IMG/VR virus record: IMGVR_UViG_3300021197_001832
Span: 1-33,524 of that record
Source of the DNA: a virus
DNA length: 33,524 bases
Direction: 5' to 3' (one strand)
The position numbers and the translations under genes were made by a program. Numbering within the stretch: position 1 is the first letter of the stretch; each line of letters begins with the position of its first letter. Of the stretch, positions 4,275 through 26,564 are shown one piece after another. Under the pieces are notes generated by a model. That model did not search any database, was not told the origin of the DNA, and was given only the letters and a program-made list of their open reading frames with translations.

Positions 4275-4763
4275 ATGGCGAGAATTAACATAGACATAGG
4301 AACACTGGGCAATCCGGCCACGGGCGATACTTTACGTACCGCTATGACCAAGATCAATACGAATTTCGAAGAGGTATTCCAACTAGTAGGTGATGGTGAC
4401 ACAGGTCTATTGACGACAAGTGTAACAAACGGTGATTTAAAGATACAGGCCAACGGTACGGGTATCATTGAAATAGATCAATTACAAATCAACAACACTG
4501 CGATCACACCAATAGTAACCAATAGTGACTTGACGTTAACAGCAAATGGCACAGGCAACATTGTTTTAGGTGCCGTGACCGTATCAGATAATAAAATAAC
4601 ATCTAATGAATCCAATGCAAACTTACAAATTGACGCCTCAGGTACTGGAGCAGTTGAAATCTTAACAGCAAAAGTCATTATGGCCAATCTACCTACAAGT
4701 GATCCAAGTGTTGCTGGACAGTTGTTCCGAAGCGGTAACGATCTTAGAGTAAGCACAGGCTAA
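4275..4763 (+). CDS. Short fibre-like repeat protein
   Basis: 162 aa, the shortest of four paralogous fibre-like proteins. The N-terminus INIDIGTLGNPATGDTLRTA with INTNFEEVFQL matches the shared head motif of this family. The rest is a tandem repeat of about 33 residues with the core N-x-[DN]-L-x-[IL]-x-A-x-G-T-G-x-[IV]-x-[IL] (near residues 55, 80 and 115), of the kind expected for a beta-helical or trimeric shaft. It ends with QLFRSGNDLRVSTG rather than a C-terminal tip domain, so it may be an adaptor or truncated fibre. Virion location is inferred from family and context. Confidence 0.72.
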   Translation: MARINIDIGTLGNPATGDTLRTAMTKINTNFEEVFQLVGDGDTGLLTTSVTNGDLKIQANGTGIIEIDQLQINNTAITPIVTNSDLTLTANGTGNIVLGAVTVSDNKITSNESNANLQIDASGTGAVEILTAKVIMANLPTSDPSVAGQLFRSGNDLRVSTG

Positions 4764-4792
4764 TAGCCGCTAGACGCATACACACAAAATAC

Positions 4793-4800
4793 GCTAAATA
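4793..4800 (+). promoter_or_regulatory. Late-type promoter box (GCTAAATA)
   Basis: GCTAAATA, 6 of 8 matches to the late consensus, 9 nt before the ATG at 4810. Confidence 0.45.
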
Positions 4801-4809
4801 TTAGTCGAT

Positions 4810-7419: not shown

Positions 7420-7421
7420 GC

Positions 7422-8990: not shown

Positions 8991-9017
8991 TAATTACATT
9001 AGGTTTATAAAAAATTA

Positions 9018-9025
9018 TATAAATA
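9018..9025 (+). promoter_or_regulatory. Late promoter (TATAAATA)
   Basis: Perfect match to the T4 late consensus in the 60-nt gap before the ATG at 9051. The expected start near 9031 leaves a leader carrying AAAAGGA as ribosome site. Confidence 0.75.
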
Positions 9026-9050
9026 CTCTTAACAAAAGGAATTTTAAAAC

Positions 9051-14384: not shown

Positions 14385-15020
14385 ATGTCAAACACATTCA
14401 CTTGGAAGATAAAATTCAAATCGATAATCATAGTTGACGGTGAACTGTTCGCCAACGAGTACAAACTGAACGTATCACTGACCCCACACACTGCGAGCCT
14501 AAAGGAGCAAACACAATATTTCGAGAGATTGAAAAATCTCTTCGAACAGGTTTTCGCAAACACCATAACAACGTGGAGGGATGAACCTCTCTACCACACG
14601 TTGAAGAAAAGCACCACGAACAGATTCATTGAATTACCAAAGCCGCCCTATGACCAGATCATGGCCGCGGTGTGTTTCTGCAAAGCCAACAGCATATTGG
14701 ACAGCAAGATAATCATTAACCACATTGAACTTTCATCATGGCAGGGCGATGGTATTACCTACACGGTTGACAAAGACAGCAAAGAGCTTATACTGTTAGA
14801 TAGACCCGATTGGTTCTCAGCGAAGTTCAGCAAATTTGATCCATGGTGGTTGAGGGCGGACACGGCAACATATGACCAAGAACTCGACAAAGGCATCTAT
14901 ACAGGACACTTCAGTTGGAACAATCAAGAGATTCCTGTTGACAAGAAGCACGAGTATCATGCTAAAATATTTGAGTTCCAACCAAAGGTACTAGATGGCG
15001 GCAAAGACAAAGATAAATGA
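14385..15020 (+). CDS. Hypothetical protein (211 aa)
   Basis: Not recognised. A soluble mixed alpha/beta protein: beta start (FTWKIKFKSIIIVDGELF), amphipathic helix (SLKEQTQYFERLKNLFEQVFANTITTW), then KPPYDQIMAAVCFCKANSILDSKIII and a Trp-rich segment (DPWWLRAD, GHFSWNNQEI). No signal peptide or membrane span. The near-leaderless late box suggests late expression. Its end overlaps the polymerase-like fragment by 26 nt. Confidence 0.66.
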   Translation: MSNTFTWKIKFKSIIIVDGELFANEYKLNVSLTPHTASLKEQTQYFERLKNLFEQVFANTITTWRDEPLYHTLKKSTTNRFIELPKPPYDQIMAAVCFCKANSILDSKIIINHIELSSWQGDGITYTVDKDSKELILLDRPDWFSAKFSKFDPWWLRADTATYDQELDKGIYTGHFSWNNQEIPVDKKHEYHAKIFEFQPKVLDGGKDKDK

Positions 15021-15516
15021 CCACGGTGATGTGATATTCTCTGAAGAGGATGTCATCGAGTTACTTTACACGAATCCGGATTTCGACATATCTAAACTTT
15101 ACCTCGACAGCATAGGCAAGTATTCAGCAAGTTTGAAAGAGCTGGGCGTAGACCTGCCTGTGATCAACACAGCACCCAAGAGACCCAAGCCGGAGATATT
15201 TGACAAGGCAAACTGTGATAACTGGCACATGCCTGACAAGTATTACCAAATAAATGTGCTACAATGGTTACTGGACAAATGTCAGAATGACGAAGAGAAA
15301 CTGAGAGTGCAAATGGAGTATGATCTGTTTGAAAAAAAACAGTTCATACGTGTGCTACAATTCCTGATATACTTCGTAGACACACTGAGGGCTAACAACA
15401 TGGTGTGGGGTGTAGGCAGGGGATCCAGCGTGGCCAGTTTCTGCTTGTTCTTGATAGGAGTACACAAGATCAATCCCATGCTGTACAATTTAGATATCAC
15501 CGAATTTTTGAGATGA
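14995..15516 (+). CDS. Fragment related to bacterial DNA polymerase III alpha (C-family palm start)
   Basis: 173 aa. The C-terminal third matches the start of the C-family polymerase palm: KLRVQMEYDL (~102-111) parallels the R-L-x-Y-E-L helix of DnaE, and GVGRGSSVAS (139-148) followed by IGVHKINPMLYNLDITEFLR parallels the DnaE pattern VGPGRGS-x-x-GS...IT-x-x-DPL-x-x-x-LLFERFL. The protein stops exactly there, before the PDxDxD aspartates would come, so it cannot polymerise DNA by itself. The first ~100 residues are unlike DnaE's PHP domain to my eye. It may be a repurposed palm fragment binding DNA or dNTP phosphate, or modulating host pol III; both are inference. Confidence 0.6.
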   Translation: MAAKTKINDHGDVIFSEEDVIELLYTNPDFDISKLYLDSIGKYSASLKELGVDLPVINTAPKRPKPEIFDKANCDNWHMPDKYYQINVLQWLLDKCQNDEEKLRVQMEYDLFEKKQFIRVLQFLIYFVDTLRANNMVWGVGRGSSVASFCLFLIGVHKINPMLYNLDITEFLR

Positions 15517-15543
15517 TAAGTAATAGTAATAGGAGCATATAAC

Positions 15544-15924
15544 ATGGTAGCAAGAGCACCCAGAAAAAGAATGTATAGAACCATGCAAGGACGCATGGTA
15601 GACATAGAAAAACTACGAGCGGCCAACGAATCAGTACAGGCAGTTGGTAACATGAATGTCAATGCGAGGGGAGATGTGTTAGGAGCAGGTGGACAAGTTG
15701 TCACACCAAAGGAACAGATAATCAAGAAGTACTATGAACAGCCAAAAGGCATGGTTAGTGATGCCCCAACCAAAGGCAAACCTATGCCGGCGCCAGTGAA
15801 GACAGTACAGAAGATGACACCCGTAGCGGCCAAACCAGCACCAAAGAAAACGGTAGCAGTGAAACCAAAAATAGAGAGTACGGCCAAAAAAGGCATAGAC
15901 GCGGCACTTGACGGATTAGAATAA
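15544..15924 (+). CDS. Hypothetical basic protein with Ala/Pro/Lys-rich tail
   Basis: 126 aa, function unknown. An ordered N-terminal part (RKRMYRTMQGRMVDIEKLRAANESVQAVGNMNVNARGDVLG, then VTPKEQIIKKYYEQPKG to ~73) precedes a low-complexity tail of K, P, A and V (APVKTVQKMTPVAAKPAPKK) ending DAALDGLE. TAGGAG lies upstream as ribosome site. Such basic disordered tails occur in small virion or scaffold-type proteins, but no family is recognised. Confidence 0.68.
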   Translation: MVARAPRKRMYRTMQGRMVDIEKLRAANESVQAVGNMNVNARGDVLGAGGQVVTPKEQIIKKYYEQPKGMVSDAPTKGKPMPAPVKTVQKMTPVAAKPAPKKTVAVKPKIESTAKKGIDAALDGLE

Positions 15925-15945
15925 ATCTGTTAAACTATTCCTATA

Positions 15946-16389
15946 ATGGGACAACTAGAAGACTTACAAGCAAAAGGATTTGGATCACACGGTGGCAAGG
16001 AATACACTGTTGATTACGACATAACGCCACTCAAGAAGAGAGTGCTAGTTTCAGACATGCACTTCGGTGAGACAAAGACCAAGGGCGGAATCATACTCAC
16101 AGACGACGACGGATCAGAATCAGGAATACATCCTAGATGGGGTAAAGTTTATGCCATCGGTGACCAACAGGAAGACGTCAAAGTCGGAGAGTGGGTCATG
16201 GTGTCACATGGACGTTGGAGCAGAGGATTCAAGATCAAGAAAAAAGGTGTTGAACTGGAAGTGAGAATGATTGACGAGAATGACATCCTGTTGGTGTCAG
16301 AAGACGAACCGGTTCAGAACAGAACGCAGGCGGGTTATGTCAACACGGGTGGTATGCAACAGATGACCAAACTACCTGGCAATGACTAA
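15946..16389 (+). CDS. GroES-like co-chaperonin (gp31-like role)
   Basis: 147 aa. Residues ~28-125 follow the Cpn10 fold: KKRVLVSDM, ETKTKGGIILTDD (the mobile loop region with its hydrophobic GGI-[IL]-L), HPRWGKVYAIGD, VKVGEWVMV, and IDENDILLV, equal to the closing beta-strand of GroES. It should cap host GroEL during folding of phage proteins, as T4 gp31 does for the capsid protein. It is longer than GroES (97 aa), with an N-terminal extension and a polar C-terminal tail (~120-147) whose role is unclear. The 8-nt overlap with the next gene implies coupling. Confidence 0.82.
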   Translation: MGQLEDLQAKGFGSHGGKEYTVDYDITPLKKRVLVSDMHFGETKTKGGIILTDDDGSESGIHPRWGKVYAIGDQQEDVKVGEWVMVSHGRWSRGFKIKKKGVELEVRMIDENDILLVSEDEPVQNRTQAGYVNTGGMQQMTKLPGND

Positions 16390-16627
16390 ACTACACACCT
16401 GTTTCGTCTGCAACAAACAATTCTTAAACGCAATATACTGGTATGACAGTCTACACGACACAAAGTACGACAAAAGAATAATAAGACCATTCTGTGGTCC
16501 ACCTTGTGCAAACAAGTACAGAGAGATGTCAGACGAGAATGATTATCCACAGAGAAAACCATTGCCCAAAGGTCCAGAGTGGCAGATAATACAGGACATC
16601 AACAACATTGATTATGAAACCAATTAA
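16382..16627 (+). CDS. Small zinc-finger protein (81 aa)
   Basis: Cys7/Cys10 (HTCFVCNKQF) and Cys38/Cys42 (PFCGPPCANKY) form a CxxC-x27-CxxxC site, a likely treble-clef or FYVE-like zinc knuckle of the kind seen in small phage nucleic-acid-binding proteins. The C-terminus (PLPKGPEWQIIQDINNIDYE) is helical. It overlaps the GroES-like gene upstream and the ParB-like gene downstream. Specific role unknown. Confidence 0.68.
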   Translation: MTKLHTCFVCNKQFLNAIYWYDSLHDTKYDKRIIRPFCGPPCANKYREMSDENDYPQRKPLPKGPEWQIIQDINNIDYETN

Positions 16628-17006
16628 GATCAAAAAAGTAAAAGTAGAAATAAGCAAACTAGTCACGATGGCTGAGATGGGATTGGGAGTCGAACGACCA
16701 CTAAACAAAGAGAAGAGGACATGGATCAACATGTTGAAGAAGGACGGTGCTTGGGATCCTATACTGGTCACTCCTATTAAGGATAGCGGGTACTATCTAC
16801 TAACAGATGGATGGCACAGGGTACAGGCCGCGACAGCACTCAAAAGGAAAACAATCAACGCATTGCAATTACCAGCCAACGCAGGATTGAGCATGGCAAA
16901 GGCCAACAAGATCTTGCGTGACATAGACAGAGAGTTTGGCTTTAAATTAGAATGTAGCAACATCATAGGACACTGGGCCATGATGCAGACACTGTTAGAA
17001 GACTAG
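16614..17006 (+). CDS. ParB/Srx-fold protein
   Basis: 130 aa from ATG 16614 (a TTG two codons earlier is less likely). WDPILVTP-(x)-GYYLLTDGWHRVQAATAL-(x)-INAL is the ParB-N/sulfiredoxin-like core; DGWHR (65-69) corresponds to the family's G-x-H-R nucleotide-binding box. Family members bind CTP or act as small nucleases or kinases. Only the N-terminal-type domain and a short helical tail are present, with no helix-turn-helix that I can see, so plasmid-type partition is unlikely. Phage role unknown; possibly a nuclease or DNA-modification regulator. Confidence 0.68.
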   Translation: MKPIKIKKVKVEISKLVTMAEMGLGVERPLNKEKRTWINMLKKDGAWDPILVTPIKDSGYYLLTDGWHRVQAATALKRKTINALQLPANAGLSMAKANKILRDIDREFGFKLECSNIIGHWAMMQTLLED

Positions 17007-17034
17007 TTGACAAATATCCAATAACTGTTACAAT
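17007..17034 (+). promoter_or_regulatory. Sigma70-type promoter, leaderless geometry
   Basis: TTGACA (17007-17012), 16-bp spacer, TACAAT (17029-17034). Counting 7 nt from the -10 end places the start at 17041, the A of the uvdE-like ATG. No Shine-Dalgarno sequence precedes that ATG. Confidence 0.75.
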
Positions 17035-17040
17035 ATACTC

Positions 17041-18081
17041 ATGACACAACGTTTCGGTTTCTGTTGCAAATGGCTTAATGACACCAGCGAGTTTGGTGGC
17101 ATGAAAGTGAACGCTAAGGACAGGGAACTCAACGGCAGAAGTACAACCATGCGTTGGCTTCGTGAACACAAGGACGAAGCAGAGCAAAGACAGTGGGACA
17201 TCATGACCCACAACACACTCGCCGCACGTAGGTTGATACAACGTGTTGGTACACTGCCACCCGAACGCAGGATGGTGAGGCTGGGTAGCGAGATGCTACA
17301 GGGCTACACAGAGAAGGACTGGAAGTCATGGTGGCAACAACCTGACATACAGAGTCATTTAGAGAATCTATTCGCACCCGTTGGTGAGATGGCGAGGAAA
17401 CTAGATGTCAAGATCAGTTTCCATCCAGGACAATTCTGTGTGCTGTCGAGTGCAACACCAGACATAGTGGAACGTAGCATAGAAGAATTTGAATACCATG
17501 CGGACATGGCAAGATGGATGGGATTTGGCAAGAGCTTCCAAGATGGTTGCAAGATAAACGTACACATCTCAGGCAAGCAAGGACCAGATGGTATTATAAA
17601 GGCACTGCCTAGGTTATCGCCTGAAGCAAGGAACCTTATCACCATAGAGAATGACGAGATGAGTCATGGACTAGATCAGTCGTTGATGTTGGAAAAACAT
17701 CTAGCATTGGTACTAGACATACACCACCATTGGATCAGAGATGAGGAATACATTGAAGCAACAGATGACAGGGTAAAACGTGTGATAGATTCGTGGCGTG
17801 GTGTGAGACCCAGTATGCACTATTCATATTCAAGGGACGAACACCTTGCAGTGGCAGGACTAGGTGATAAAACACACACGGAGATGCATGACATCAAGAT
17901 GTTGCTGGAGCGTGGTTGCAAGAAACAGAAACTGCGGGCACACTCGGACCTATTACCAAACACAAAAGTAAATGACTGGGCATTGAGTTTCTCAGAAAAC
18001 TTTGACATACAGGTAGAGGCCAAAGGAAAAAACATGGCCACAGAACAATTATATAGACAATACCTAGAAAATTCTGTATAA
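17041..18081 (+). CDS. uvdE: UV DNA damage endonuclease (UvdE/UvsE family)
   Basis: 346 aa, full length for the bacterial family. It nicks DNA 5' to UV photoproducts and other distortions, starting alternative excision repair. The TIM-barrel metal site is visible: N-terminal RFGFCCKW, HPGQF (His128), NVHISG (His175), TIENDE (Glu203, Asp205), LVLDIHHH (Asp226, His228, His229) and MHYSYSRD (His260). The conserved SxxxxD and C-terminal EAKGKNMA also fit. It is transcribed from its own host-type promoter, which argues for early expression; UV repair of phage DNA at the sea surface is a reasonable role. T4 instead uses the unrelated DenV. Confidence 0.9.
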   Translation: MTQRFGFCCKWLNDTSEFGGMKVNAKDRELNGRSTTMRWLREHKDEAEQRQWDIMTHNTLAARRLIQRVGTLPPERRMVRLGSEMLQGYTEKDWKSWWQQPDIQSHLENLFAPVGEMARKLDVKISFHPGQFCVLSSATPDIVERSIEEFEYHADMARWMGFGKSFQDGCKINVHISGKQGPDGIIKALPRLSPEARNLITIENDEMSHGLDQSLMLEKHLALVLDIHHHWIRDEEYIEATDDRVKRVIDSWRGVRPSMHYSYSRDEHLAVAGLGDKTHTEMHDIKMLLERGCKKQKLRAHSDLLPNTKVNDWALSFSENFDIQVEAKGKNMATEQLYRQYLENSV

Positions 18082-18082
18082 T
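18054..18082 (+). promoter_or_regulatory. Sigma70-type promoter for formate dehydrogenase
   Basis: TAGACA (18054-18059), 17-bp spacer, TATAAT (18077-18082): 11 of 12 consensus matches, lying in the last codons of the uvdE-like gene. Predicted start near 18089 leaves a leader with AGGAG at about 18096-18100 ahead of ATG 18106. Confidence 0.7.
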
Positions 18083-18105
18083 CAAAAGCACTAACAGGAG
18101 ATAAA

Positions 18106-19302
18106 ATGAAAATACTATGCGTATTATACGACGACCCCAAAGGCGGAATGCCTGAGAGTTATCCACTTACGGATCTACCCAAGTTAGAAAAGTATCCAGA
18201 CGGTATGACACTACCATCACCAAAAGGCAGAGATTTTAATGCGGGTGAACTGTTAGGTTGTGTATCTGGCGAACTTGGACTAAGAAAGTTTCTAGAAGAT
18301 GCAGGACATGAACTTGTTGTGACTTCTAGCAAAGATGGTGACGACTGCGAAGCAGACAAAGAGCTGGTAGATGCAGACGTTGTTATTTCTCAACCGTTTT
18401 TTCCTTACTATCTGACAAGAGAAAAAATGGAGAAAGCAAAGAACCTTAAGATGGCAATCACGGCAGGTATCGGATCTGATCACGTGGACTTACAAGCGGC
18501 TATGGATCACAAGATTGATGTTGTAGAAGTGACTTACTGTAATTCAAGATCAGTTGCTGAACACATCGTGATGATGATAGTTTCTATGGTCAGAGATTAT
18601 CACACCCAACACGCAATCGTTAACGCAGGTGGTTGGAATATTGCTGACGCAGTACAAAGATCATATGACGTTGAAGGTATGCACATAGGTACAGTTGCGG
18701 CTGGACGTATTGGCTTGGACGCACTGAGAAAAATGAAACCATTTGATGTACATCTACATTACTTTGACAGACACAGACTACCTGAAGCAATAGAGCAAGA
18801 GTTGAATCTTACTTTCCATGAGTCAGTGGAGTCAATGGTCAAGGTATGTGACGTTGTGACAATCAACTGTCCACTACACCCAGAGACGGAAAACTTATTT
18901 GATGCTGAAATGATAAGCAAGATGAAAAAAGGTGCTTACATTGTCAACACTGCGAGAGGCAAGATCTGTAACAGAGAAGCCATCGCAGATGCATTGAAAA
19001 GCGGACAACTGTCTGGTTATGCAGGAGACGTTTGGTTCCCACAACCAGCACCAAATGATCACGTTTGGAGATCAATGCCAAATCATGGTATGACACCACA
19101 CACATCAGGAACATCACTATCAGCACAGACAAGATATGCTGACGGTGTTAGAGAGATACTGGAATGTATGTTCGATAACACACCAATCAGGGATCAATAC
19201 CTAATTGTACAGAACGGTGAACTTGCTGGCATGGGTGCCCACAGTTACAGTAAAGGAACTGCAACAGGTGGATCTGAAGAGGCGGCAAAATATAAAAAAT
19301 AA
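18106..19302 (+). CDS. fdh: NAD-dependent formate dehydrogenase
   Basis: 398 aa, nearly the length of Pseudomonas sp. 101 enzyme and alignable without a large gap. It oxidises formate to CO2 and reduces NAD+. All residues I can check sit at the expected numbers: Ile122 and Asn146 (formate site), the AAGRIG turn (198-203), Asp221 (selects NAD over NADP), Arg284 (NTARGK), Asp308, Gln313 (WFPQPAP), His332 and Ser334 (TPHTSGT). The long N-terminal loop (DDPKGG, YPDGMTLP) and the terminal GAHSYSKG-T-ATGGSEEA are specific to formate dehydrogenase rather than generic D-2-hydroxyacid dehydrogenases. Metal-free and cytosolic. Own promoter and ribosome site suggest a moron-type metabolic gene. Confidence 0.93.
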   Translation: MKILCVLYDDPKGGMPESYPLTDLPKLEKYPDGMTLPSPKGRDFNAGELLGCVSGELGLRKFLEDAGHELVVTSSKDGDDCEADKELVDADVVISQPFFPYYLTREKMEKAKNLKMAITAGIGSDHVDLQAAMDHKIDVVEVTYCNSRSVAEHIVMMIVSMVRDYHTQHAIVNAGGWNIADAVQRSYDVEGMHIGTVAAGRIGLDALRKMKPFDVHLHYFDRHRLPEAIEQELNLTFHESVESMVKVCDVVTINCPLHPETENLFDAEMISKMKKGAYIVNTARGKICNREAIADALKSGQLSGYAGDVWFPQPAPNDHVWRSMPNHGMTPHTSGTSLSAQTRYADGVREILECMFDNTPIRDQYLIVQNGELAGMGAHSYSKGTATGGSEEAAKYKK

Positions 19303-19307
19303 TATAG

Positions 19308-19399
19308 TAGGCTTTGTGATGACTAAAAAGGAAATTGAAGAATTACATAAGAAGATTGATAAACTTCAAACCACCGTTGACAAATTATCACAAAGCCTA
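19308..19399 (+). repeat. 13-nt perfect inverted repeat enclosing a start codon
   Basis: Arms 19308-19320 and 19387-19399 are perfect reverse complements (TAGGCTTTGTGAT and ATCACAAAGCCTA) and extend by wobble and one more pair on the inner side. The start codon at 19319-19321 is inside the stem. Confidence 0.7.
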
Positions 19400-19483
19400 T
19401 ATAAACATATTAAGTTCATAGATTCAACATACGACGGATTGAAAAATCCAATCGAAGCGGCAAGGAAATGGTTACGTAGATGA
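19319..19483 (+). CDS. Small coiled-coil protein (54 aa)
   Basis: Starts MTKKEIEELHKKIDKLQTT and keeps a heptad-like I/L pattern (IEELHKKIDKLQTTVDKLSQSL) before a short tail (NPIEAARKWLRR). No family recognised. I chose ATG 19319 over a longer frame that would begin inside formate dehydrogenase. It overlaps the next gene by 4 nt (ATGA). An inverted repeat covers its start. Confidence 0.6.
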   Translation: MTKKEIEELHKKIDKLQTTVDKLSQSLYKHIKFIDSTYDGLKNPIEAARKWLRR

Positions 19484-19698
19484 AAGAGTTCAAACTTGTT
19501 GTGAAGGTTGGTGACCTTATAGAAGTGGGCAGGTTCAGGAATGTATCTACCAAGATCAAAAAAATAGAGTTGGATGAATACGGACAACCTGTTATAATAA
19601 CAAGCAAGGGTGCTAAAAAGTTATTAAGTTGTAGATTGTCAAAACTACATCCAGGTAGCAAGACACCAAAACAAATACTAATGGAAAAACGTAAATGA
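19480..19698 (+). CDS. Small basic protein (72 aa)
   Basis: Not recognised. Beta-strand pattern (KLVVKVGDLIEVGRF, STKIKKIEL, PVIITSKGAKKLL) suggests a small SH3-like barrel, with a basic tail (TPKQILMEKRK). It overlaps both neighbours by 4 nt and is locked to the clamp loader by ATGA, so it is probably made with the replication protein. Confidence 0.65.
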   Translation: MKEFKLVVKVGDLIEVGRFRNVSTKIKKIELDEYGQPVIITSKGAKKLLSCRLSKLHPGSKTPKQILMEKRK

Positions 19699-20621
19699 AA
19701 GAACTTTGGGTAGAAAAATACAGACCTAAGACATTGAAAGAATATGTTGTAAGGGACGAAGCACAGCGAAGTCAGATACAATCATGGATCACGGACAAAG
19801 CGATCCCGCATTTGCTATTGAGTGGTGCACCTGGTGTGGGCAAGACCACACTGGCAAAAGTATTGTTTGCAGAACTAGATGTCAGCAGTTATGACATACT
19901 GGAAATAAATGCTTCGAGAGAGAATTCAGTGGACACAGTTAGGGAGAAGATCAACAACTTTGTACAGATAATGCCATTCGGTGATTACAAATACGTATTA
20001 CTGGATGAGGCTGACTACATGAGTCCAAATGGACAGGCGGCACTGCGTGGCGTTATGGAGATGTATCACACATCAGCGAGATTCATATTGACTTGCAACT
20101 ATCCCAACAGAGTCATCCCTGCACTGCACAGCAGGTGCCAAGGCTTCCACATGGAAACTATTGACAAAACAGAATACACTGCAAGGGCTTGTGAAATTCT
20201 TATCACAGAGAGTGTGACCCCGGACATAGAAGTCCTGGACACTTATGTAAAAGCATCATATCCTGATCTAAGAAAATGCATCAACATGCTACAACAGAAT
20301 TGTAGAGATGGCAAACTGCAACCACCGGCAACAGGTGATTCAGGACAGCAGGATTACAGACTGCAAATGGTTGATCTGTTTAAACAAGGCAAAATAAATG
20401 AAGCAAGAAAACTTGTATGTGCCCAGGCGAGACCAGAAGAGTGTGAAGAGATATACAGATGGCTGTATGATAACCTAGACATCATAAGCAAGGAGGATGA
20501 ACTGCAAGACAAAGCAGTGCTGATAATCAAACAAGGGTTGGTTGATCATTCATTCGTGGCTGATCCAGAAATAAACCTAGCAAGTGTGATGATCAAACTA
20601 GCAAGGTTAGGTAATGGGTAG
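19695..20621 (+). CDS. 44: Sliding-clamp loader ATPase (T4 gp44-like)
   Basis: 308 aa; T4 gp44 has 319. It is an AAA+ protein that opens and loads the polymerase clamp on primed DNA. Start ELWVEKYRPKTLKEYV is the RFC-type opening. Walker A GAPGVGKT (44-51), Walker B LLDEAD (102-107), sensor 1 ILTCN (131-135) and the arginine-finger box SRC (146-148) are all present. In T4 the order is 45-44-62-regA-43; neither the clamp nor polymerase is recognisable here, so the replication genes are split relative to T4. The following 90 aa protein is not convincing as gp62. Confidence 0.88.
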   Translation: MKELWVEKYRPKTLKEYVVRDEAQRSQIQSWITDKAIPHLLLSGAPGVGKTTLAKVLFAELDVSSYDILEINASRENSVDTVREKINNFVQIMPFGDYKYVLLDEADYMSPNGQAALRGVMEMYHTSARFILTCNYPNRVIPALHSRCQGFHMETIDKTEYTARACEILITESVTPDIEVLDTYVKASYPDLRKCINMLQQNCRDGKLQPPATGDSGQQDYRLQMVDLFKQGKINEARKLVCAQARPEECEEIYRWLYDNLDIISKEDELQDKAVLIIKQGLVDHSFVADPEINLASVMIKLARLGNG

Positions 20622-20886
20622 TAAGCACAACAAAAAAAGATTCCTAATTGTAAAGTACAGTCTTAATATGAAAGGCACCTACGATGAACTTGTAGAACTA
20701 TCAAAGAAGAACGTAGGTCCGGGAAAGTTGGTACAATCGGGGGTGGTTTTAGATCTTGTCAACGAAGAAGTTTTGAAATGCGTGGTACCCGGTCAGCCAA
20801 ATTTAGTTGACCATATTTCTTATGACACTCTGTACAAACATTTCTACAAAGCGTATGGAAGTATGCTAGATCAGTTTATCAAATAG
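20614..20886 (+). CDS. Hypothetical 90 aa protein after the clamp loader
   Basis: Overlaps the clamp-loader gene by 8 nt. It reads MGSKHNKKRFLIVKYSLNMKGTYDELVELS, then GPGKLVQSGVVLDLVNEEVLKC and a C-terminal helix (YKHFYKAYGSMLDQF). Position invites gp62 (small clamp-loader subunit, 187 aa in T4), but length and sequence give no support. It converges with the minus-strand ORF, ends overlapping by 8 nt. Confidence 0.62.
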   Translation: MGSKHNKKRFLIVKYSLNMKGTYDELVELSKKNVGPGKLVQSGVVLDLVNEEVLKCVVPGQPNLVDHISYDTLYKHFYKAYGSMLDQFIK

Positions 20887-21001
20887 CATTACTGTACATA
20901 CGTCTAAGCATGGCCAACTGGCTTGCTTTCCATAGTCTAGTGAGTACTCTACGTCTTCTTCTGTCCTTCTGTTTCCTAATCTTCAGCCAATTTTGATTCA
21001 T
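20879..21001 (-). CDS. Very basic 40 aa minus-strand ORF
   Basis: MNQNWLKIRKQKDRRRRRVLTRLWKASQ and so on: 12-13 Arg/Lys in 40 residues, possibly RNA- or DNA-binding. Its start overlaps the end of the upstream minus-strand ORF by 26 nt, consistent with coupling. The composition could also arise from chance, so support is modest. Confidence 0.4.
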   Translation of the reverse strand: MNQNWLKIRKQKDRRRRRVLTRLWKASQLAMLRRMYSNAI

Positions 21002-21158
21002 TGTGTACAACTTTACTCGCTTGTCGTACACGGTCTTTTTCCTCATTAGTTTCCATAATTTCCGTTGAAATAAAGGTCGCAGTTGTAGGCTTTGATACAG
21101 CATAAGATTCCCCGTGGTTGATTGTGTTGGATTTGATGTGTCTATGTTTCCGACTCAT
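20976..21158 (-). CDS. Small charged 60 aa minus-strand ORF
   Basis: MSRKHRHIKSNTINHGESYAVSKPTTATFISTEIMETNEEKDRVRQAS and onward; no family recognised. The ATG at 21158 lies 7 nt downstream of a minus-strand late-type box (21166-21173), the same geometry as the clear late genes. With the next ORF it explains the only gap over 300 nt (20887-21235) without a plus-strand gene. Confidence 0.48.
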   Translation of the reverse strand: MSRKHRHIKSNTINHGESYAVSKPTTATFISTEIMETNEEKDRVRQASKVVHNESKLAED

Positions 21159-21165
21159 GTACAAA

Positions 21166-21173
21166 TATTTAAT
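21166..21173 (-). promoter_or_regulatory. Late-type promoter box (ATTAAATA), minus strand
   Basis: 6 of 8 matches to the late consensus; same octamer as the box before the zinc-ribbon gene at 4249-4256. Predicted start 2 nt before ATG 21158. Confidence 0.42.
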
Positions 21174-21221
21174 GTGGTAATCGTTCAATAACTGTGCATA
21201 TATTTGTCGCCCAAAATTTAT

Positions 21222-21229
21222 CATAAATA
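21222..21229 (+). promoter_or_regulatory. Late promoter box (CATAAATA)
   Basis: 7 of 8 matches, 6 nt before ATG 21236; it lies in the dyad ATTTATCATAAAT (21216-21228). Confidence 0.65.
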
Positions 21230-21235
21230 AGCACT

Positions 21236-21706
21236 ATGCATGATGTACTAGACATAATCAGAAATGTACAAACCTTATACGCAGTAGGTCCTACACTGGG
21301 AATATTAAAAGATTTCGAAAGAGTCGTGGACGAACTGGATGTGTATGTTTTTACCAATTGGGAAGACGGTGAATTACTATCCGGACCTGTAGATTCTAGA
21401 CATTTCGTCACGTGTTCATTCATGTGGCCTCTAGACAAGATGCCTGACCCGGTTGGCGGAAAGAGACTGACTGACAAGGGTTGCAAAGTCACATTCAAGA
21501 AAGATGAATTGTTAAAACCAAGAGCAATCAAGAGTCCGGAGGATTACAGACCCGGAACTACTAAAGGTAAGATCGATGCACATGACATTTGGGTAGTCGA
21601 GATCAGGATGCCGAAACAGTTGATCGGAAATATCAAGCACGGCAACGATGAGATAGAGAGACAGGAAGACATGGACATGGCTCCTGAAACTGGATTAGAA
21701 ATCTAA
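21236..21706 (+). CDS. Hypothetical late protein (156 aa)
   Basis: No function recognised, though sequence of this type (LKDFERVVDELDVYVFTNWEDGEL, VTCSFMWPLDKMPDP-x-GGKRL) looks familiar from marine T4-like phages. The C-terminal part (IDAHDIWVVEIRMPKQLIGNIKHG) is followed by an acidic tail. No signal or membrane segment. Near-leaderless late promoter and a one-base overlap with the next gene suggest co-expression with it late in infection. Structural role possible but unproved. Confidence 0.72.
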   Translation: MHDVLDIIRNVQTLYAVGPTLGILKDFERVVDELDVYVFTNWEDGELLSGPVDSRHFVTCSFMWPLDKMPDPVGGKRLTDKGCKVTFKKDELLKPRAIKSPEDYRPGTTKGKIDAHDIWVVEIRMPKQLIGNIKHGNDEIERQEDMDMAPETGLEI

Positions 21707-22446
21707 TGAACATACAAGAAGGACTTAAAGCAGGAGACCTAGAAGGCGTTGTAAACAAACGTTTCTCAGTGGATCAATTCAAATCCAAGATGGGTGATGA
21801 CAAGAACATTTTGGTTCTTAGTTTCACTGTTGACGGACAGGCACCGGCAAAGGACCTTGAACGTTTTGCTGAAGTGGGCTACAAGAGTGTGCTTGATGCA
21901 GACGCCACTCCAGGAACAATGGAAGACGGCAAACACAAAGTATTCATAGAGTTCGCAAGAGACTCATCAGTTGTCAAAAGCATAATGGCATTCCTGGAGG
22001 ACCTAAAAAAACTTACGAACATAGAAGAGTTTGAATACACGTACCACAAGGGCATAGACTCAACAATGGTTTCAGCAGAGACACTGGAAGCATCTATCCC
22101 GACCACACCAGAAGCATACGAAATGAGAGTTAATGAAATGAGAGTCAGCGAAGCCAGACACTTCTTTGACAAGTATGACATGATGGAATGCAAGATAAAC
22201 GAGAACACGATGTCTGTTAAAAAAACAGGTGCGGGACACGAACTAAAATTTGAGATACACAAATTTGGATCGACAGATGATATAATGAAAGAGACCAAGG
22301 CATTCAAGATAGACATGGATTCTATTGCAGAATGTACACATCTTACAAAGTATTTTGGCACATACGATATTACCAAAACAAACGAAAACCAATTCATTTT
22401 CACCAAGGGTGACCAGTCTGCACTTTTAAGTAAAAGCGGTTGGTAA
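21706..22446 (+). CDS. Hypothetical late protein (246 aa)
   Basis: N-terminal half with VVNKRFSVDQFKSKMGDDKNILVLSF, SVLDADATPGTMEDGKHKVFIEFARD and FLEDLKKLTNIEEFEYTYHKG; C-terminal half helical then beta (AYEMRVNEMRVSEARHFFDKYDM, TKYFGTYDITKTNENQFIFTKGDQ). I considered the gp45 clamp because of length and the nearby clamp loader, but see no sequence support. Acidic and soluble. Probably late, with the upstream gene; function unknown. Confidence 0.7.
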   Translation: MNIQEGLKAGDLEGVVNKRFSVDQFKSKMGDDKNILVLSFTVDGQAPAKDLERFAEVGYKSVLDADATPGTMEDGKHKVFIEFARDSSVVKSIMAFLEDLKKLTNIEEFEYTYHKGIDSTMVSAETLEASIPTTPEAYEMRVNEMRVSEARHFFDKYDMMECKINENTMSVKKTGAGHELKFEIHKFGSTDDIMKETKAFKIDMDSIAECTHLTKYFGTYDITKTNENQFIFTKGDQSALLSKSGW

Positions 22447-22457
22447 TATAATACACG

Positions 22458-22477
22458 CACTTATTGATAAATAAGTG
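22458..22477 (+). promoter_or_regulatory. Hairpin overlapping the endolysin late promoter
   Basis: Perfect 8-bp arms CACTTATT (22458-22465) and AATAAGTG (22470-22477) around the loop GATA. The late box lies across loop and right arm, and the arm ends one base before the endolysin ATG (22479). Confidence 0.65.
22466..22473 (+). promoter_or_regulatory. Late promoter box (GATAAATA) of the endolysin
   Basis: 7 of 8 matches; predicted start at 22479, the ATG itself. Confidence 0.65.
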
Positions 22478-22478
22478 T

Positions 22479-22940
22479 ATGAGACTAAGCACAAACTTCA
22501 CACTAGCAGAATTCACAAAGAGTCAGACAGCCACAAGGAAAGGTCTTGACAACACTCCAGGCGATGAACACCTATCAAATGCAAAAGAACTGTTTGCCAA
22601 TGTTGTACAGAAGGTCAGAGAGAACTTTGGGGTCACAGTGATCAACTCAGGTTACAGGGGACCAGCACTTAATGAAGCAGTTGGTGGATCAAGCAATTCA
22701 CAACACTGCAAAGGCGAAGCAGTTGACATAGAATGCCCAGGCACAGGAAACTATGATGTGGCCAAATGGATCGAAGAGAACTGTGATTTCGATCAATTGA
22801 TATTAGAATTCTACACACCAGGCATACCTGATTCAGGTTGGGTTCATGTGAGCTACAAGACAGAAGGCAACAGGAAATCAATCCTTACGGCCATGAAAGA
22901 GAACGGCAAAACTGTTTACAAGCAAGGCCTTATTCAATAA
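22479..22940 (+). CDS. M15-family peptidase endolysin
   Basis: 153 aa. A zinc peptidase of the M15A/D-Ala-D-Ala-carboxypeptidase type that cuts peptidoglycan stem peptides. Start LSTNFTLAEFTKSQTA is the usual M15A opening; INSGYRGPALN (55-65), SQHCKGEAVD (74-83, ligands His76 and Asp83) and GWVHVS (120-125, third ligand His123) complete the site. ATG 22479 is chosen: the alternative TTG at 22464 would lie inside the promoter hairpin. No signal peptide, so it needs a holin. Followed directly by a spanin pair, it is the likely lysis enzyme. Confidence 0.87.
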   Translation: MRLSTNFTLAEFTKSQTATRKGLDNTPGDEHLSNAKELFANVVQKVRENFGVTVINSGYRGPALNEAVGGSSNSQHCKGEAVDIECPGTGNYDVAKWIEENCDFDQLILEFYTPGIPDSGWVHVSYKTEGNRKSILTAMKENGKTVYKQGLIQ

Positions 22941-22943
22941 ATA
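22936..22943 (+). promoter_or_regulatory. Late promoter box (AATAAATA) of the spanin pair
   Basis: 7 of 8 matches, overlapping the endolysin stop codon (22938-22940); 8 nt before ATG 22952. Confidence 0.62.
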
Positions 22944-22951
22944 CGTACATT

Positions 22952-23425
22952 ATGTTCGGACAAATTAAAATGGTAATCACAATAGTACTCATCGCGGGTA
23001 TAGCCGGTGCAGGAATGTATGTGATGAAATTGAGAGCTGACAATGCCACACTCAAGGCAAATCAAATACAACTAGAAACTGCCATCACTGAACAGAACAA
23101 AGTGTTAGAACAACAAAAAGAAGACTTCACAGCAATATTAGAAAGCAATAAAAAACTTAATGTGTTGATCAACACATTCAAAAAAGATTTACAAGACCTA
23201 GACAAAAGATTCACAAAGAAGAACAGAGACATTGGCAAACTAGCAATCGAGAGAACAAAAGCGATTGAAAGAATCATTAACAAAGCTTCAGCCAATGCGG
23301 CAAGATGTGTTGAGTTGGCATCAGGCGCAGAACACACAGAAGAAGAATTAAAAGCAACATTAAAATCGGAGATAAACCCGGAATGCCCGAGTTTAGCAAA
23401 CCCAAACTATGTACCATATCAATAA
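22952..23425 (+). CDS. i-spanin-like inner-membrane protein
   Basis: 157 aa from ATG 22952. One N-terminal membrane segment (MVITIVLIAGIAGAGMYVM, ~7-25) then a long charged coiled coil (LRADNATLKANQIQLETAI, LEQQKEDFTAILESNKKLN and onward) and a short C-terminal end with two Cys. This is the Rz (i-spanin) layout. The lipoprotein gene begins inside its 3' end in another frame (17-nt overlap), as in many Rz/Rz1 pairs. Together they would fuse inner and outer membranes at lysis. Call rests on topology and context, since spanins share little sequence. Confidence 0.72.
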   Translation: MFGQIKMVITIVLIAGIAGAGMYVMKLRADNATLKANQIQLETAITEQNKVLEQQKEDFTAILESNKKLNVLINTFKKDLQDLDKRFTKKNRDIGKLAIERTKAIERIINKASANAARCVELASGAEHTEEELKATLKSEINPECPSLANPNYVPYQ

Positions 23426-23777
23426 AATATTAGCATTAGCATTTATCGTATTACTAACAGGTTGTAGCATTGGTGGCGAAAAGAAGATTAAAATATTCTC
23501 AGTTGAGAAACCAAGAGAGAAATTGGACTACCCCATGCCAACTGCACTTCAACTGGAAGAACTTAAATGGATAATCATCACAAGTGAGAACGCACAAGAA
23601 GTTTTTGCCAAACTAGAAGAGGCAGGCATAGATCCTGTGCTGTTCGGAATAACAGACAAAGACTATCAAGTACTTGCTAGAAACTTTGCACAGATAAGAC
23701 AAAAATTACAAGAAACAAATAATCTTCTTGAGGAATATAAGAAATACTATGAACCAAAAGAAGAGGAGAAAAAATAA
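23409..23777 (+). CDS. o-spanin-like lipoprotein
   Basis: 122 aa with a lipoprotein signal: MYHINKILALAFIVLLTGCS, lipobox LTGC with Cys19. The mature part has KIFSVEKPREKLDYPMP, then helix and coiled coil (NFAQIRQKLQETNNLLEEYKKYYEPK). Overlap with the i-spanin-like gene and endolysin context support an outer-membrane spanin partner, although it is larger than lambda Rz1 (60 aa) and lacks a Pro-rich middle. A host-surface lipoprotein with another role is the alternative. Its stop overlaps the next ATG (TAATG). Confidence 0.68.
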   Translation: MYHINKILALAFIVLLTGCSIGGEKKIKIFSVEKPREKLDYPMPTALQLEELKWIIITSENAQEVFAKLEEAGIDPVLFGITDKDYQVLARNFAQIRQKLQETNNLLEEYKKYYEPKEEEKK

Positions 23778-24211
23778 TGTGGACCTATAGAGCAAAAGTT
23801 GTCAGAGTCATAGATGGCGACACAGTTGATGTCGACATCGATCTAGGGTTTGGAATTTGGCAGAAGAATGAACGTGTGAGGATCATGGGCATAGACACTC
23901 CCGAATCAAGAACAAGAAACAAGATTGAAAAGAAATTTGGGTTGGCGGCAAAAGCCAAACTGAAATCAATACTAGGAAAAATAACCGTGCTTAAGACCAC
24001 AATCAACAAGAAAGGCGTGGACATGAAGGGCAAGTTCGGCAGAGTGCTGGGAGACTTTCTACAGGATGATAAATCTGTTGCAAAAATAATGTGTGAAACA
24101 GGACACGCAGTACCATACTTTGGTGGTGCAAAAGCAAACACACAGAAACAACACATAAAGAACAGGAAGAAACTAGTGGCACAAGGTGTTGTTAAAGGAG
24201 CCATCGAATAA
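23777..24211 (+). CDS. Staphylococcal-nuclease-like (thermonuclease) protein
   Basis: 144 aa. RVIDGDTVDVDIDLGF (Asp13/Asp15), ERVRIMGIDTPE (Arg35, Asp40, Glu43) and GKFGRVLG (Arg89) match the calcium-dependent SNase active site D21/R35/D40/E43/R87. It should cut DNA or RNA non-specifically. No signal peptide, so it would act in the cytoplasm unless released at lysis. Placement inside the lysis region is unusual; use after lysis or in host-DNA breakdown is inference. Confidence 0.87.
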   Translation: MWTYRAKVVRVIDGDTVDVDIDLGFGIWQKNERVRIMGIDTPESRTRNKIEKKFGLAAKAKLKSILGKITVLKTTINKKGVDMKGKFGRVLGDFLQDDKSVAKIMCETGHAVPYFGGAKANTQKQHIKNRKKLVAQGVVKGAIE

Positions 24212-24214
24212 ATA
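24207..24214 (+). promoter_or_regulatory. Late promoter box (AATAAATA)
   Basis: 7 of 8 matches; predicted start near 24220 leaves a short leader with GAGGAG before ATG 24237. Confidence 0.62.
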
Positions 24215-24236
24215 TGCATATTAAACGAGGAGAATT

Positions 24237-24827
24237 ATGGAACTTATAATAGGATTAGCAATGAAATTTTGGCAATGGACAGTATTGATCGCTGTCGTTA
24301 TTGTTGCCGCGATAATCAACTTCACAGACAAGAGAGCAAAGACAAAATTAAAATTCTACTACAAAGGAATGCCAAAGTTACAACCTGTACCGATCGCAAC
24401 AAAGGGCAAAGGTTTTTGGAAAGGTATTGTGATGTGGTTACTTTCAACAAGGAACTGGGTGTTGACAGAAGATTGGAAATACAACATAGACGGTACTGAA
24501 TACGTGATACCAGCAGGATTCCAATTTGATGGTGCAAGTATTCCTAAGTTTTTAAGAACTTTCTTCTCACCGGTTGGTGTGTTGTTGATGGGTGGACTGG
24601 TGCATGACTATGCATACAAGTACAAAACACTTTTAAAAGTAGACAAGAAAGACACAATGGGTGAACTTACACAGAAAAAAGCAGATGAGATCTTCAGAGA
24701 CATCAACATCATCGTAAACGGATTCTACACAATGAACAGACTTGCATACTGGTCATTGAGAATAGGTGGATTCGTTGCATGGAATGGTCACAGAAAAAGA
24801 GATGCAAAGATTGAAGGTGTGAAATAA
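24237..24827 (+). CDS. DUF1353-type membrane-anchored protein
   Basis: 196 aa. One N-terminal membrane segment (FWQWTVLIAVVIVAAIINF, ~11-29), then the DUF1353 core: VIPAGFQFDGASIPKFLRTFFSP (~90-112), GLVHDYAYKY (~120-129), KADEIFRDINI and YWSLRIGGFVAW. DUF1353 proteins are common in phage lysis and tail neighbourhoods but lack a proven activity; the conserved D-G-A-S-[IV]-P and H-D-Y suggest an enzymatic site. It shares a base with the next start (TAATG), pairing it with the holin candidate. Confidence 0.78.
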   Translation: MELIIGLAMKFWQWTVLIAVVIVAAIINFTDKRAKTKLKFYYKGMPKLQPVPIATKGKGFWKGIVMWLLSTRNWVLTEDWKYNIDGTEYVIPAGFQFDGASIPKFLRTFFSPVGVLLMGGLVHDYAYKYKTLLKVDKKDTMGELTQKKADEIFRDINIIVNGFYTMNRLAYWSLRIGGFVAWNGHRKRDAKIEGVK

Positions 24828-25147
24828 TGGCTGAATTAAAAGAAGACAAACTGATTGTAAAGAACGACAACATAGTCAAACGTGGAGCCAAAGACGGTTG
24901 GGAGTTGATCAAAACTGTCTGGGTTTTCTTGAGAGACGAATTACCACAGTTCCTATCTAACTGGAGAACTGTTCCAAGAATAATGATGGGATTGTATGGC
25001 CTAGTGTTCTACAACACAATGCAATGGTTCATGTCATTACCAGAACCAAACAACGCACAGGCTGGTTTCGTTTCAGTTGTTGTTGGTGCGGGTGCGGCCT
25101 GGTTCGGCCTTTACGTAAACGGCAAGAAGACAGACATCAAGAAATAA
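24827..25147 (+). CDS. Two-TM protein, holin candidate
   Basis: 106 aa. A soluble charged N-terminus (~1-45, including GWELIKTVWVFLRDELPQFL) and two membrane segments (RIMMGLYGLVFYNTMQWFMS, ~51-70; FVSVVVGAGAAWFGLYV, ~81-97) with a basic C-terminus (NGKKTDIKK). Size, topology and position after endolysin and spanins suit a class II-like holin that releases the endolysin. Small phage membrane proteins of other function look the same, so this is a contextual call. Confidence 0.58.
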   Translation: MAELKEDKLIVKNDNIVKRGAKDGWELIKTVWVFLRDELPQFLSNWRTVPRIMMGLYGLVFYNTMQWFMSLPEPNNAQAGFVSVVVGAGAAWFGLYVNGKKTDIKK

Positions 25148-25191: not shown

Positions 25192-26055
25192 ATGAAAGAT
25201 TATTACAAGGTCCTAGGTGTAGGCGAGACCGCCACCACAGAGCAGATAAAGAAAGCATTCAAGGACATAGCCAAGAAAGAACACCCAGACAGGGGTGGCA
25301 ACAAGGACAGGTTCCAAGAGGCCAGTGAAGCACACGACACACTGAAAAATTCACAGAAACGACACGACTACGACACACAAAGAAAGTTTGGTGGCAGTGG
25401 ACAGGGACAGCACCCGTTCTTTAATGAAGACATATTTGGAGATTTCTTCTCAGGATTCAGTGGCGGAGACATGGACTTCAATGGAAGATTTAACTTCCAG
25501 GGAAATCCAAACATGCAAACAAAGACTTTTAGATCAAGACCACAAGCAAATCGTAATATACAGGTAAGGATGGCCATATCAATCAAAGAGGCCATGATGA
25601 ACAACGAGAAGACCATCAACTACAAACTTCCTTCGGGTAGAGAAGAGTTCGCAACAGTCAAAATACCGGCAGGTGTGCAACACGGAGTGACATTCAAGTT
25701 CGCTGGCATGGGAGATGACTCGATTAAAAATGTACCTCGTGGTGATCTACTTGTACAAATGAGTGTGTTGGATTCAGATGGATACACAAGGAAAGTTAAT
25801 GATCTATACACCGACAAGACCATCGACTGTTTCCAGGCCATAAGGGGTCATGAGTTAAAATTAAAGACACTGGAGGACAGTGTGATAACGGTCAAGGTGC
25901 CTGCAGGCACACAGCATGGAACATTATTGAGTGTAAAAGGTAAAGGAATGCCAGTCCACAGGACATTAAATATAAGAGGAAATCTTTACATTAGAGTTTT
26001 GGTACTGATACCACAATTATCAACAGCAGACCTAAAAAAGATAAAGGACTTATAA
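25192..26055 (+). CDS. DnaJ/CbpA-like co-chaperone (type II J-protein)
   Basis: 287 aa. J domain DYYKVLGVGETATTEQIKKAFKDIAKKEHPDRGG with the HPD tripeptide at 31-33, a Gly/Phe-rich linker (FNEDIFGDFFSGFSGGDMDF), and two beta substrate-binding domains (KIPAGVQHGVTFKFAGMGDD; VKVPAGTQHGTLLSVKGKGMPV). There is no CxxCxGxG zinc finger, so it is of CbpA type. It would stimulate host DnaK ATPase and deliver clients. The stop shares one base with the deformylase start, and ClpA-like follows, giving a folding/proteolysis operon from one host-type promoter. Confidence 0.9.
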   Translation: MKDYYKVLGVGETATTEQIKKAFKDIAKKEHPDRGGNKDRFQEASEAHDTLKNSQKRHDYDTQRKFGGSGQGQHPFFNEDIFGDFFSGFSGGDMDFNGRFNFQGNPNMQTKTFRSRPQANRNIQVRMAISIKEAMMNNEKTINYKLPSGREEFATVKIPAGVQHGVTFKFAGMGDDSIKNVPRGDLLVQMSVLDSDGYTRKVNDLYTDKTIDCFQAIRGHELKLKTLEDSVITVKVPAGTQHGTLLSVKGKGMPVHRTLNIRGNLYIRVLVLIPQLSTADLKKIKDL

Positions 26056-26564
26056 TGATAGAATTGTTTTCATACCCACACCACACACTAGAAACAGTCA
26101 GTACACCGTGGGACTGGAAGACAGATACCATAGAACATCACGCAGACCTCAACAAGTTTGAACATGAGATGATACAGTTCATGAAGGATGAGAGGGGCTT
26201 AGGACTTGCCGCTAACCAGATAGGCATTACCAAAAGATTCTTTGCTATAGGACACGAGTCGTTTGACACAATCTCAAAACCTGCTATAATATGGAACCCA
26301 AAGATAATAAAGTCAAGCAAAGAAAAAGTCATAGATGTAGAAGGTTGCTTGAGCTTTATGGATGTTTGGATAAAAGTGGAGAGACCAAGAAAAGTTGAAG
26401 TGCAATATGAATTATCAAATGGACAACTACACATGGCAGAGCTTGACGGCATGGAGTCGAAGTGTTTCCAACACGAGCTTGATCACTTGGACGGTATCAC
26501 TTTTAACAAGCGAGTCTCAAAACTGAAATGGGACATGGCAAAGAAAAAAGCACGAAAAAATTAA
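26055..26564 (+). CDS. def: Peptide deformylase
   Basis: 169 aa, usual bacterial length. It removes the formyl group from new N-terminal methionines. Motif 1 GLGLAANQ (48-55), motif 2 EGCLS (96-100, Cys98 metal ligand) and motif 3 QHELDHLDG (139-147; His140, Glu141, His144) are intact. Unlike the very short deformylases of some marine cyanophages, the C-terminal part is present (KRVSKLKWDMAKKKARKN). In the same operon as the DnaJ-like and ClpA-like genes. Confidence 0.93.
   Translation: MIELFSYPHHTLETVSTPWDWKTDTIEHHADLNKFEHEMIQFMKDERGLGLAANQIGITKRFFAIGHESFDTISKPAIIWNPKIIKSSKEKVIDVEGCLSFMDVWIKVERPRKVEVQYELSNGQLHMAELDGMESKCFQHELDHLDGITFNKRVSKLKWDMAKKKARKN

Follow-up and report, generated by a model that had tools for sequence, protein, structure and literature searches.

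Metabolic genes carried by phages are well known. SAR11 bacteria, which are among the commonest bacteria of the sea, burn one-carbon compounds for energy, and the NAD-dependent formate dehydrogenases (FDH) form a family encoded by one gene and devoid of metal cofactor. In the parts of the literature covered here, the closest described case is the pelagimyophage PMP-MAVG-4, for which a formate dehydrogenase is listed with a GMP reductase in two sentences (PMC7029224, 2020). On the bacterial side, the sections consulted for SAR11 strain HTCC1062 describe a tetrahydrofolate-linked oxidation of C1 units that ends with formate dehydrogenase, the enzyme being of the Mo type; formate alone gave no rise in ATP in this strain, and the authors suspect a lack of uptake (PMC3160333). 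According to the portions covered of other papers, an FdnN beta-subunit-like protein occurs in Citromicrobium phage RXM (PMC8953757), fdnI in viral metagenomes (PMC4022391) and fwdH in digester viruses (PMC13394424), and further reports concern host or community genes (PMC12753301, PMC3686209, PMC10994693, PMC10683058, PMC9402790). Genes for C1 oxidation do have precedent in phages, as the covered part of the Lake Baikal study indicates (PMC7678222). In the sections consulted of the open PMC literature on formate dehydrogenase and phages, a formate dehydrogenase of a pelagic phage is named only in PMC7029224, and we found no account of NAD-FDH in phages, of repeated FDH capture from SAR11 or of FDH cassette exchange.

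The stretch that we analysed, hereafter the window, is a virus record of 33,524 bases, a linear fragment, and it encodes an FDH (Table 1). The initial annotation had claimed an intact enzyme of the Pseudomonas type, and the first part of this claim is borne out: the NCBIfam profile NF005750 scores 659.1 bits against a curated cut-off of 329 (E = 2e-198) and matches residues 2-384 of 398 (profile positions 3-385 of 386). The second-best NCBIfam family, phosphoglycerate dehydrogenase, reaches 158 bits, where its own cut-off is 454. In the PDB the best E-value is 5e-195, and 30 FDH sequences rank at E <= 1e-82 before the next family at 7e-37. A chance resemblance to FDHs is excluded by the two best E-values. 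The alignment to the solved bacterial FDHs 2gsd, 3fn4 and 2go1 runs without gap over residues 2-398, so that both family-specific termini are indeed present; 2nac aligns over residues 2-393 with no offset in numbering, and plant and yeast-type FDHs align with the window protein only from residue 47-48. As between FDHs and other D-2-hydroxyacid dehydrogenases, the protein groups with FDHs by score, which is far above that of the other dehydrogenase families, and it falls inside an FDH-only tree.

Table 1. Position of the FDH gene and of neighbouring or related features in the window.
Feature	Position	Strand	Remark
UvdE-type UV endonuclease (uvdE)	17041..18081	+	left flank of cargo slot
Promoter-like TAGACA-N17-TATAAT (11/12)	18054..18082	+	overlaps uvdE end
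AGGAG ribosome-binding-like site	18096..18100	+	5 nt before FDH ATG
NAD-dependent formate dehydrogenase (FDH)	18106..19302	+	398 aa, intact, ATG start
54-aa ORF	19319..19483	+	coiled-coil-like by eye; just downstream of FDH
72-aa ORF	19480..19698	+	between FDH and gp44; presence varies among relatives
gp44-type clamp-loader ATPase	19695..20621	+	right flank of cargo slot
Peptide deformylase	26055..26564	+	formate-releasing enzyme, same phage

The catalytic and substrate set considered here (Phe98, Ile122, Asn146, Arg284, Asp308, Gln313, His332 and Ser334) is complete in the window protein. All eight residues named in the initial annotation, Asp221 among them, are thus confirmed in 2nac numbering, and 16 further positions match as well. 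The stretch GTVAAGRIG, around position 198, is common to the window protein and the aligned 2nac. The positions checked are invariant in 80/80 phage rows where sequence is present, Arg222 excepted. Asp221, the acidic residue that fixes NAD+ over NADP+, is kept in the same 80 phage rows and in all SAR11 rows, and from what is known of the family its invariance points to NAD+ as the cofactor. Position 222, an NAD-pocket residue, is changed from Arg to Lys in 52 of the 80 phage rows, all belonging to clades B and C, and in 0/127 cellular SAR11-order rows; this replacement may change cofactor affinity. The gene is best read as encoding a functional auxiliary enzyme, which would be expressed and active in SAR11-like hosts, to the benefit of the phage, converting formate to CO2 and NADH.

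The phage nature of the surrounding DNA, also part of the initial annotation, is apparent both from the genes of the window and from the same gene order in relatives. Near FDH the window encodes a clamp loader, virion-family proteins, an endolysin, a Clp-type ATPase, DnaJ, a GroES-like protein and the peptide deformylase. FDH directly follows uvdE in ten other viral contigs (L001-L009, L071), and gp44 follows FDH in eight of them, the fetched stretches of L007 and L009 ending within or just after FDH. In an eleventh contig (G974), the last 55 FDH codons (residues 344-398, 95%) form the contig edge upstream of gp44. The relative L004, whose whole contig (G004) has 196,581 bases, encodes T4-type terminase, capsid, portal, sheath, neck, baseplate and polymerase genes. 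Among named phages the window gp44 is closest to those of Pseudomonas giant phages such as PA5oct (54%), and no named phage was matched when window positions 15001-25000 were compared with the phage collection by megablast.

Several other features of this family deserve mention in their own right. The fetched gp44-family loci range in GC from 0.31 to 0.48, and their groES-gp44 region (L258-L292, L002) is a variable cargo region in which many different ORFs come and go, a rubrerythrin being among those of L002. In G004 an IMPDH/GMP-reductase and a GTP cyclohydrolase I lie close together (G004:C1:140206-142250) near several radical-SAM genes, and a phosphoribosyltransferase and a Vut_1 transporter-like protein are also found near the cyclohydrolase; no QueC/QueD family match indicative of a 7-deazaguanine pathway was found in the 29 ORFs scanned of the 214 called. 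At positions 9-1037 and 1485-2570 the window encodes two related-looking proteins of 340-360 aa with an SLSKTFP motif, which in our view resembles the lysine site of PLP enzymes. Neither has a Pfam family; the former has a weak PHROG match only (20 bits), and the latter has no PHROG match and no convincing PDB relative. A weak relative (25-28%) lies beside groES in L004. A stand-alone 173-aa protein (14995-15516) matches Pfam PF07733, which covers the NTPase part of the alpha subunit of DNA polymerase III, and is 74-89% identical across ten family contigs. Finally, four tandem genes at 4275-10799, tail-type by guess, have in common an N-terminal motif seen by eye, INIG..ANDGTGD.LR.A..K.N.NF.E, and G004 has counterparts of three of the four.

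We then considered the position of FDH between uvdE and gp44. The sequence AACAGGAG precedes FDH in all seven clade loci of the leader comparison (L001, L002, L003, L004, L006, L007 and L009), which left out L005, L008 and L071. Promoter-like sites number 17 in the region against 16.3 expected by chance, and the function of the one upstream of FDH is therefore unproven. A similar promoter-like sequence and AACAGGAG leader stand before a different gene in the FDH-less locus L268, which suggests a cargo slot. The 54-aa ORF lies inside or at the edge of the tract of high identity described below, and similar ORFs occur in the FDH-less L262, L268 and L276. The uvdE-gp44 interval could be read in 15 of 80 gp44 loci: FDH occupies it in 4 (contigs already counted as FDH carriers), small or unrelated ORFs fill it in 6, and in 5 the gap is only 12-13 bases, without FDH; the interval of L269 was judged by its coordinates, which equal those of L268. 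No FDH was found elsewhere on the contigs of the 11 FDH-less loci, these contigs being fragments.

The genes of this region differ in their divergence. In comparison with the window, dS was 0.06 for FDH, 0.70 for uvdE and 0.62 for gp44 in L001; 0.11, 0.93 and 0.28 in L002; 0.52, 2.14 and 1.80 in L003; and 0.50, 1.59 and 1.35 in L006. In L009 it was 0.21 for FDH and 2.10 for uvdE, with no data for gp44, and in L004 it was 0.55 for FDH and at saturation for both flanking genes. The tail protein gave 1.87-3.20 in the same pairs. In each of these pairs FDH thus has the lowest dS (0.06-0.55), the flanking genes measured alongside it ranging from 0.28 to saturation. Moreover, nucleotide identity between L001 and the window is 75-94% in uvdE, climbs to 96-100% at about position 18141 and drops past about 19440; the 72-aa ORF is also absent from L001. 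Identity steps are seen on both sides in L004, mainly on the left in L002, and weakly in L003 and L006. Low FDH dS together with steps at the edges is the pattern expected from small-cassette recombination between otherwise diverged phages, and FDH seems to spread among family members by recombination into one uvdE-gp44 cargo slot. Judged from pN/pS, the gene is under strong purifying selection, with values of 0 to 0.071 in the window clade (15 pairs of six sequences) and 0.09-0.21 in clade B (78 pairs of 13 sequences).

As to the origin of the gene, the best 80 bacterial or archaeal matches listed are all titled Pelagibacteraceae or Pelagibacterales and are 89-92% identical to the window FDH. 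The initial annotation needs correction here: the nearest cellular relatives among the matches listed are SAR11 and not Pseudomonas. The NAD-FDH family is present in 125 of 197 Pelagibacterales genomes, in 53/147 genomes of the family to which the SAR11 genome G002 belongs, and in 5/398 genomes of the phylum, one of which is G002 itself, the query genome. When 90 rows (61 phage, 22 SAR11-order and 7 other) were placed in a maximum-likelihood tree, the window clade of 9 phage rows (100/84) fell within a SAR11 group (99/97; next node inwards 94/69). A second phage clade of 43 rows (100/100) groups with other SAR11-order sequences (93/94), and the placement of a third clade of 8 rows and of L041 is without resolution. 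Monophyly of all phage FDHs is rejected (p-AU 0.0027); a constraint uniting only the first two of the phage clades gives a borderline result (p-AU 0.057), and the second and third are compatible with a single clade (p-AU 0.33). Since the all-phage clade is rejected and the window clade lies inside SAR11, we conclude, with some caution, that FDH was captured at least twice. The best explanation is that the window phage family acquired the gene from Pelagibacterales, directly or via another phage. L010, a different phage with a locus GC of 0.31, carries the most basal FDH of the window clade, and the gene may have reached the window phage through such a phage. Three features of an auxiliary metabolic gene, namely location in a phage genome, derivation from a cellular gene and retention by selection, are thus combined here. 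In a separate observation, the alpha subunit of the Mo-type FDH was found in 39 of the 197 Pelagibacterales genomes and both enzymes in only 2 (Fisher p = 1.3e-17), where a single contig carries the two genes at a distance of about 3.4 kb (G866:C2, G930:C2); this suggests that NAD-FDH and Mo-FDH are alternative occupants of one chromosomal SAR11 locus.

FDH is not restricted to the window family. A scan of viral contigs gave 103 stretches that encode some FDH relative (pattern-based, E <= 1e-3), and the best 80 of these 103, 75-100% identical to the window FDH, make up the viral set used here. Insertion sites were judged by comparison with the gene set of the SAR11 phage Mosig. In Mosig-like phages, of which L045 and L048 are examples (large terminase 67%), the small and the large terminase gene enclose FDH. 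Elsewhere FDH lies near gp32 (L018, L019, L022, L024, L050), near primase and ribonucleotide reductase genes (L039, L064), or near nrd, glutaredoxin and mostly also thyX (L060, L065, L066, L069, L070, L072, L073); 26 of the 80 loci have no match to the Mosig set. The window gene is therefore no lone oddity: many contigs of various types of phage carry FDH, and an earlier paper already mentions a phage formate dehydrogenase (PMC7029224). In the phage collection, 80% coverage of the FDH query was reached nowhere. Matches of 48% in records named Staphylococcus phages were set aside: the record sets concerned lack annotation and contain several further dehydrogenases, and for this reason the matches are read as probable bacterial contamination.

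Other explanations of these data must be weighed. The window and its relatives are metagenome assemblies and the window FDH is about 90% identical to SAR11 genes, which might evoke a chimera of phage and SAR11 DNA. Against this, ten other contigs, each from a different IMG dataset, show the same uvdE-FDH junction, although some of these datasets may be re-assemblies of one sample. The ten encode seven different FDH proteins and differ further at the nucleotide level, with nine FDH sequences, so that misassembly is very unlikely. FDH GC3 is 0.35 in the window against 0.18 in SAR11, and no other close SAR11 gene lies beside FDH; we regard a chimera as having a negligible chance. Chromosomal contamination of the 80 viral loci was likewise discarded: among ORFs of at least 70 aa, FDH is the sole gene that 76 of the 80 have in common with 80 SAR11 chromosomal loci, and L028, L042, L044 and L071 have one extra match each, at 26-44% identity. 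One could also imagine a host gene taken up by chance and drifting as a neutral passenger, in keeping with the patchy presence of FDH in the family (the 4 of 15 readable intervals). This view is already largely refuted, and very improbable, in light of the strong purifying selection, the more than one origin of the phage copies and the presence of FDH at several unrelated phage sites. A further proposal is that FDH serves mainly to remove formate released by phage enzymes and not to feed energy metabolism. Formate is released by both peptide deformylase and GTP cyclohydrolase I; the window encodes the former, and the 196.6-kb relative encodes both. However, a specific link does not emerge, with no association across 35 contigs: GTP cyclohydrolase I is found in 5/20 FDH-carrying contigs against 10/15 family contigs without FDH, and deformylase in 12/20 against 12/15, the 20 carriers including other phage types and many fragments, so that their lower figures are not evidence of absence. 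Because most FDH-less family contigs have these enzymes too, they fail to explain the presence of FDH, and a clean-up role appears improbable.

The identity of the host is a distinct matter. The same enzyme could play the same role in a bacterium outside SAR11, FDH having been obtained from a SAR11 phage. The window has a GC of 0.42 against 0.31 for SAR11 loci, its FDH has a raised GC3, its nearest named phages by gp44 are the Pseudomonas giant phages, and the most basal FDH of its clade is that of L010, the different, low-GC phage mentioned above. In addition, a gp44 relative was found in 0/397 Pelagibacterales genomes at E <= 1e-30, in a search without positive control. In view of the GC difference and of this count, SAR11 is not proven as the host of the window phage. 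On the other side, the FDH locus of the family member L004 has a GC of 0.335, similar to the 0.33 of the SAR11 phage Mosig, and the rubrerythrin of L002 is 87% identical to that of Mosig; together with the ancestry of FDH, these observations favour a SAR11 host. We hold a host outside SAR11 to be less likely than not, though clearly more probable than the alternatives above; it is compatible with the enzyme reading, and the two probabilities overlap.

We thus return to a working enzyme, and consider it likely that the window encodes an active, metal-free, NAD+-dependent FDH from SAR11, held in an exchangeable cargo slot with its own leader and turning formate into NADH in the course of infection; its expression, activity, timing, benefit and host we infer. 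In the scenario that we propose, FDH would sit between uvdE and gp44 behind its own ribosome-binding-like leader and spread by recombination at that place. Formate would be supplied as the end product of the tetrahydrofolate-linked one-carbon oxidation of the host, with further formate coming from the deformylation of proteins and, at least in part of the family, from GTP cyclohydrolase. The enzyme would oxidise it to CO2 with one NADH per formate, and this NADH could keep respiration and reductive nucleotide synthesis going while the host enzyme is lost or limiting. The most likely role of the phage FDH would then be to provide additional NADH from formate during infection. The place of formate dehydrogenase in SAR11 C1 oxidation speaks for this reading, and the missing ATP response of HTCC1062 to formate speaks against it (PMC3160333). 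Since the Mo-type and NAD enzymes are near-exclusive in SAR11, the phages would carry the simpler of two alternative host FDHs. A broader idea, which we advance tentatively and rate slightly short of an even chance, is that phages infecting SAR11-like hosts convergently meet a bottleneck at formate oxidation: the metal-free FDH would have been captured at least twice, placed at several unrelated sites and moved as a cassette of about 1.3 kb by allele exchange at one slot in a giant-phage family, making formate-to-NADH conversion independent of the host Mo enzyme. These results point to formate-derived reducing power as something that marine viruses compete for, and infection may tap the one-carbon energy supply of SAR11. 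With the phage FDH, the way in which infection alters carbon oxidation in the sea could be tested cleanly through a single gene.

How does this locus compare with known systems? Relative to the bacterial NAD-FDHs (NF005750; 2nac/2gsd), the window copy has the same length, both termini and the checked catalytic and NAD-binding positions; it differs in being carried by a phage. Its closest cellular counterparts among the matches listed are from SAR11, at 84-92% identity. The Mo-dependent FDH of SAR11 Ia, as presented in the part of the source covered here, performs the same reaction at the same pathway step in the host group, whereas it has several subunits and a Mo cofactor and belongs to another protein family (PMC3160333). 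PMP-MAVG-4 likewise has a formate dehydrogenase in a putative SAR11 myophage; however, the covered text of that paper refers to FDH-H, a Mo/Se enzyme, and puts forward a proton gradient, a comparison that is by description only (PMC7029224). The GMP reductase listed there parallels the IMPDH/GMP-reductase of G004 (PMC7029224). The methanol dehydrogenase of the Lake Baikal methylotroph phages, as given in the covered part of its source, is likewise a gene for one-carbon oxidation carried by T4-like phages, and one of these phages encodes a peptide deformylase too, as the window does; it is, however, a different enzyme, acting at the first and not the last step of one-carbon oxidation (PMC7678222).
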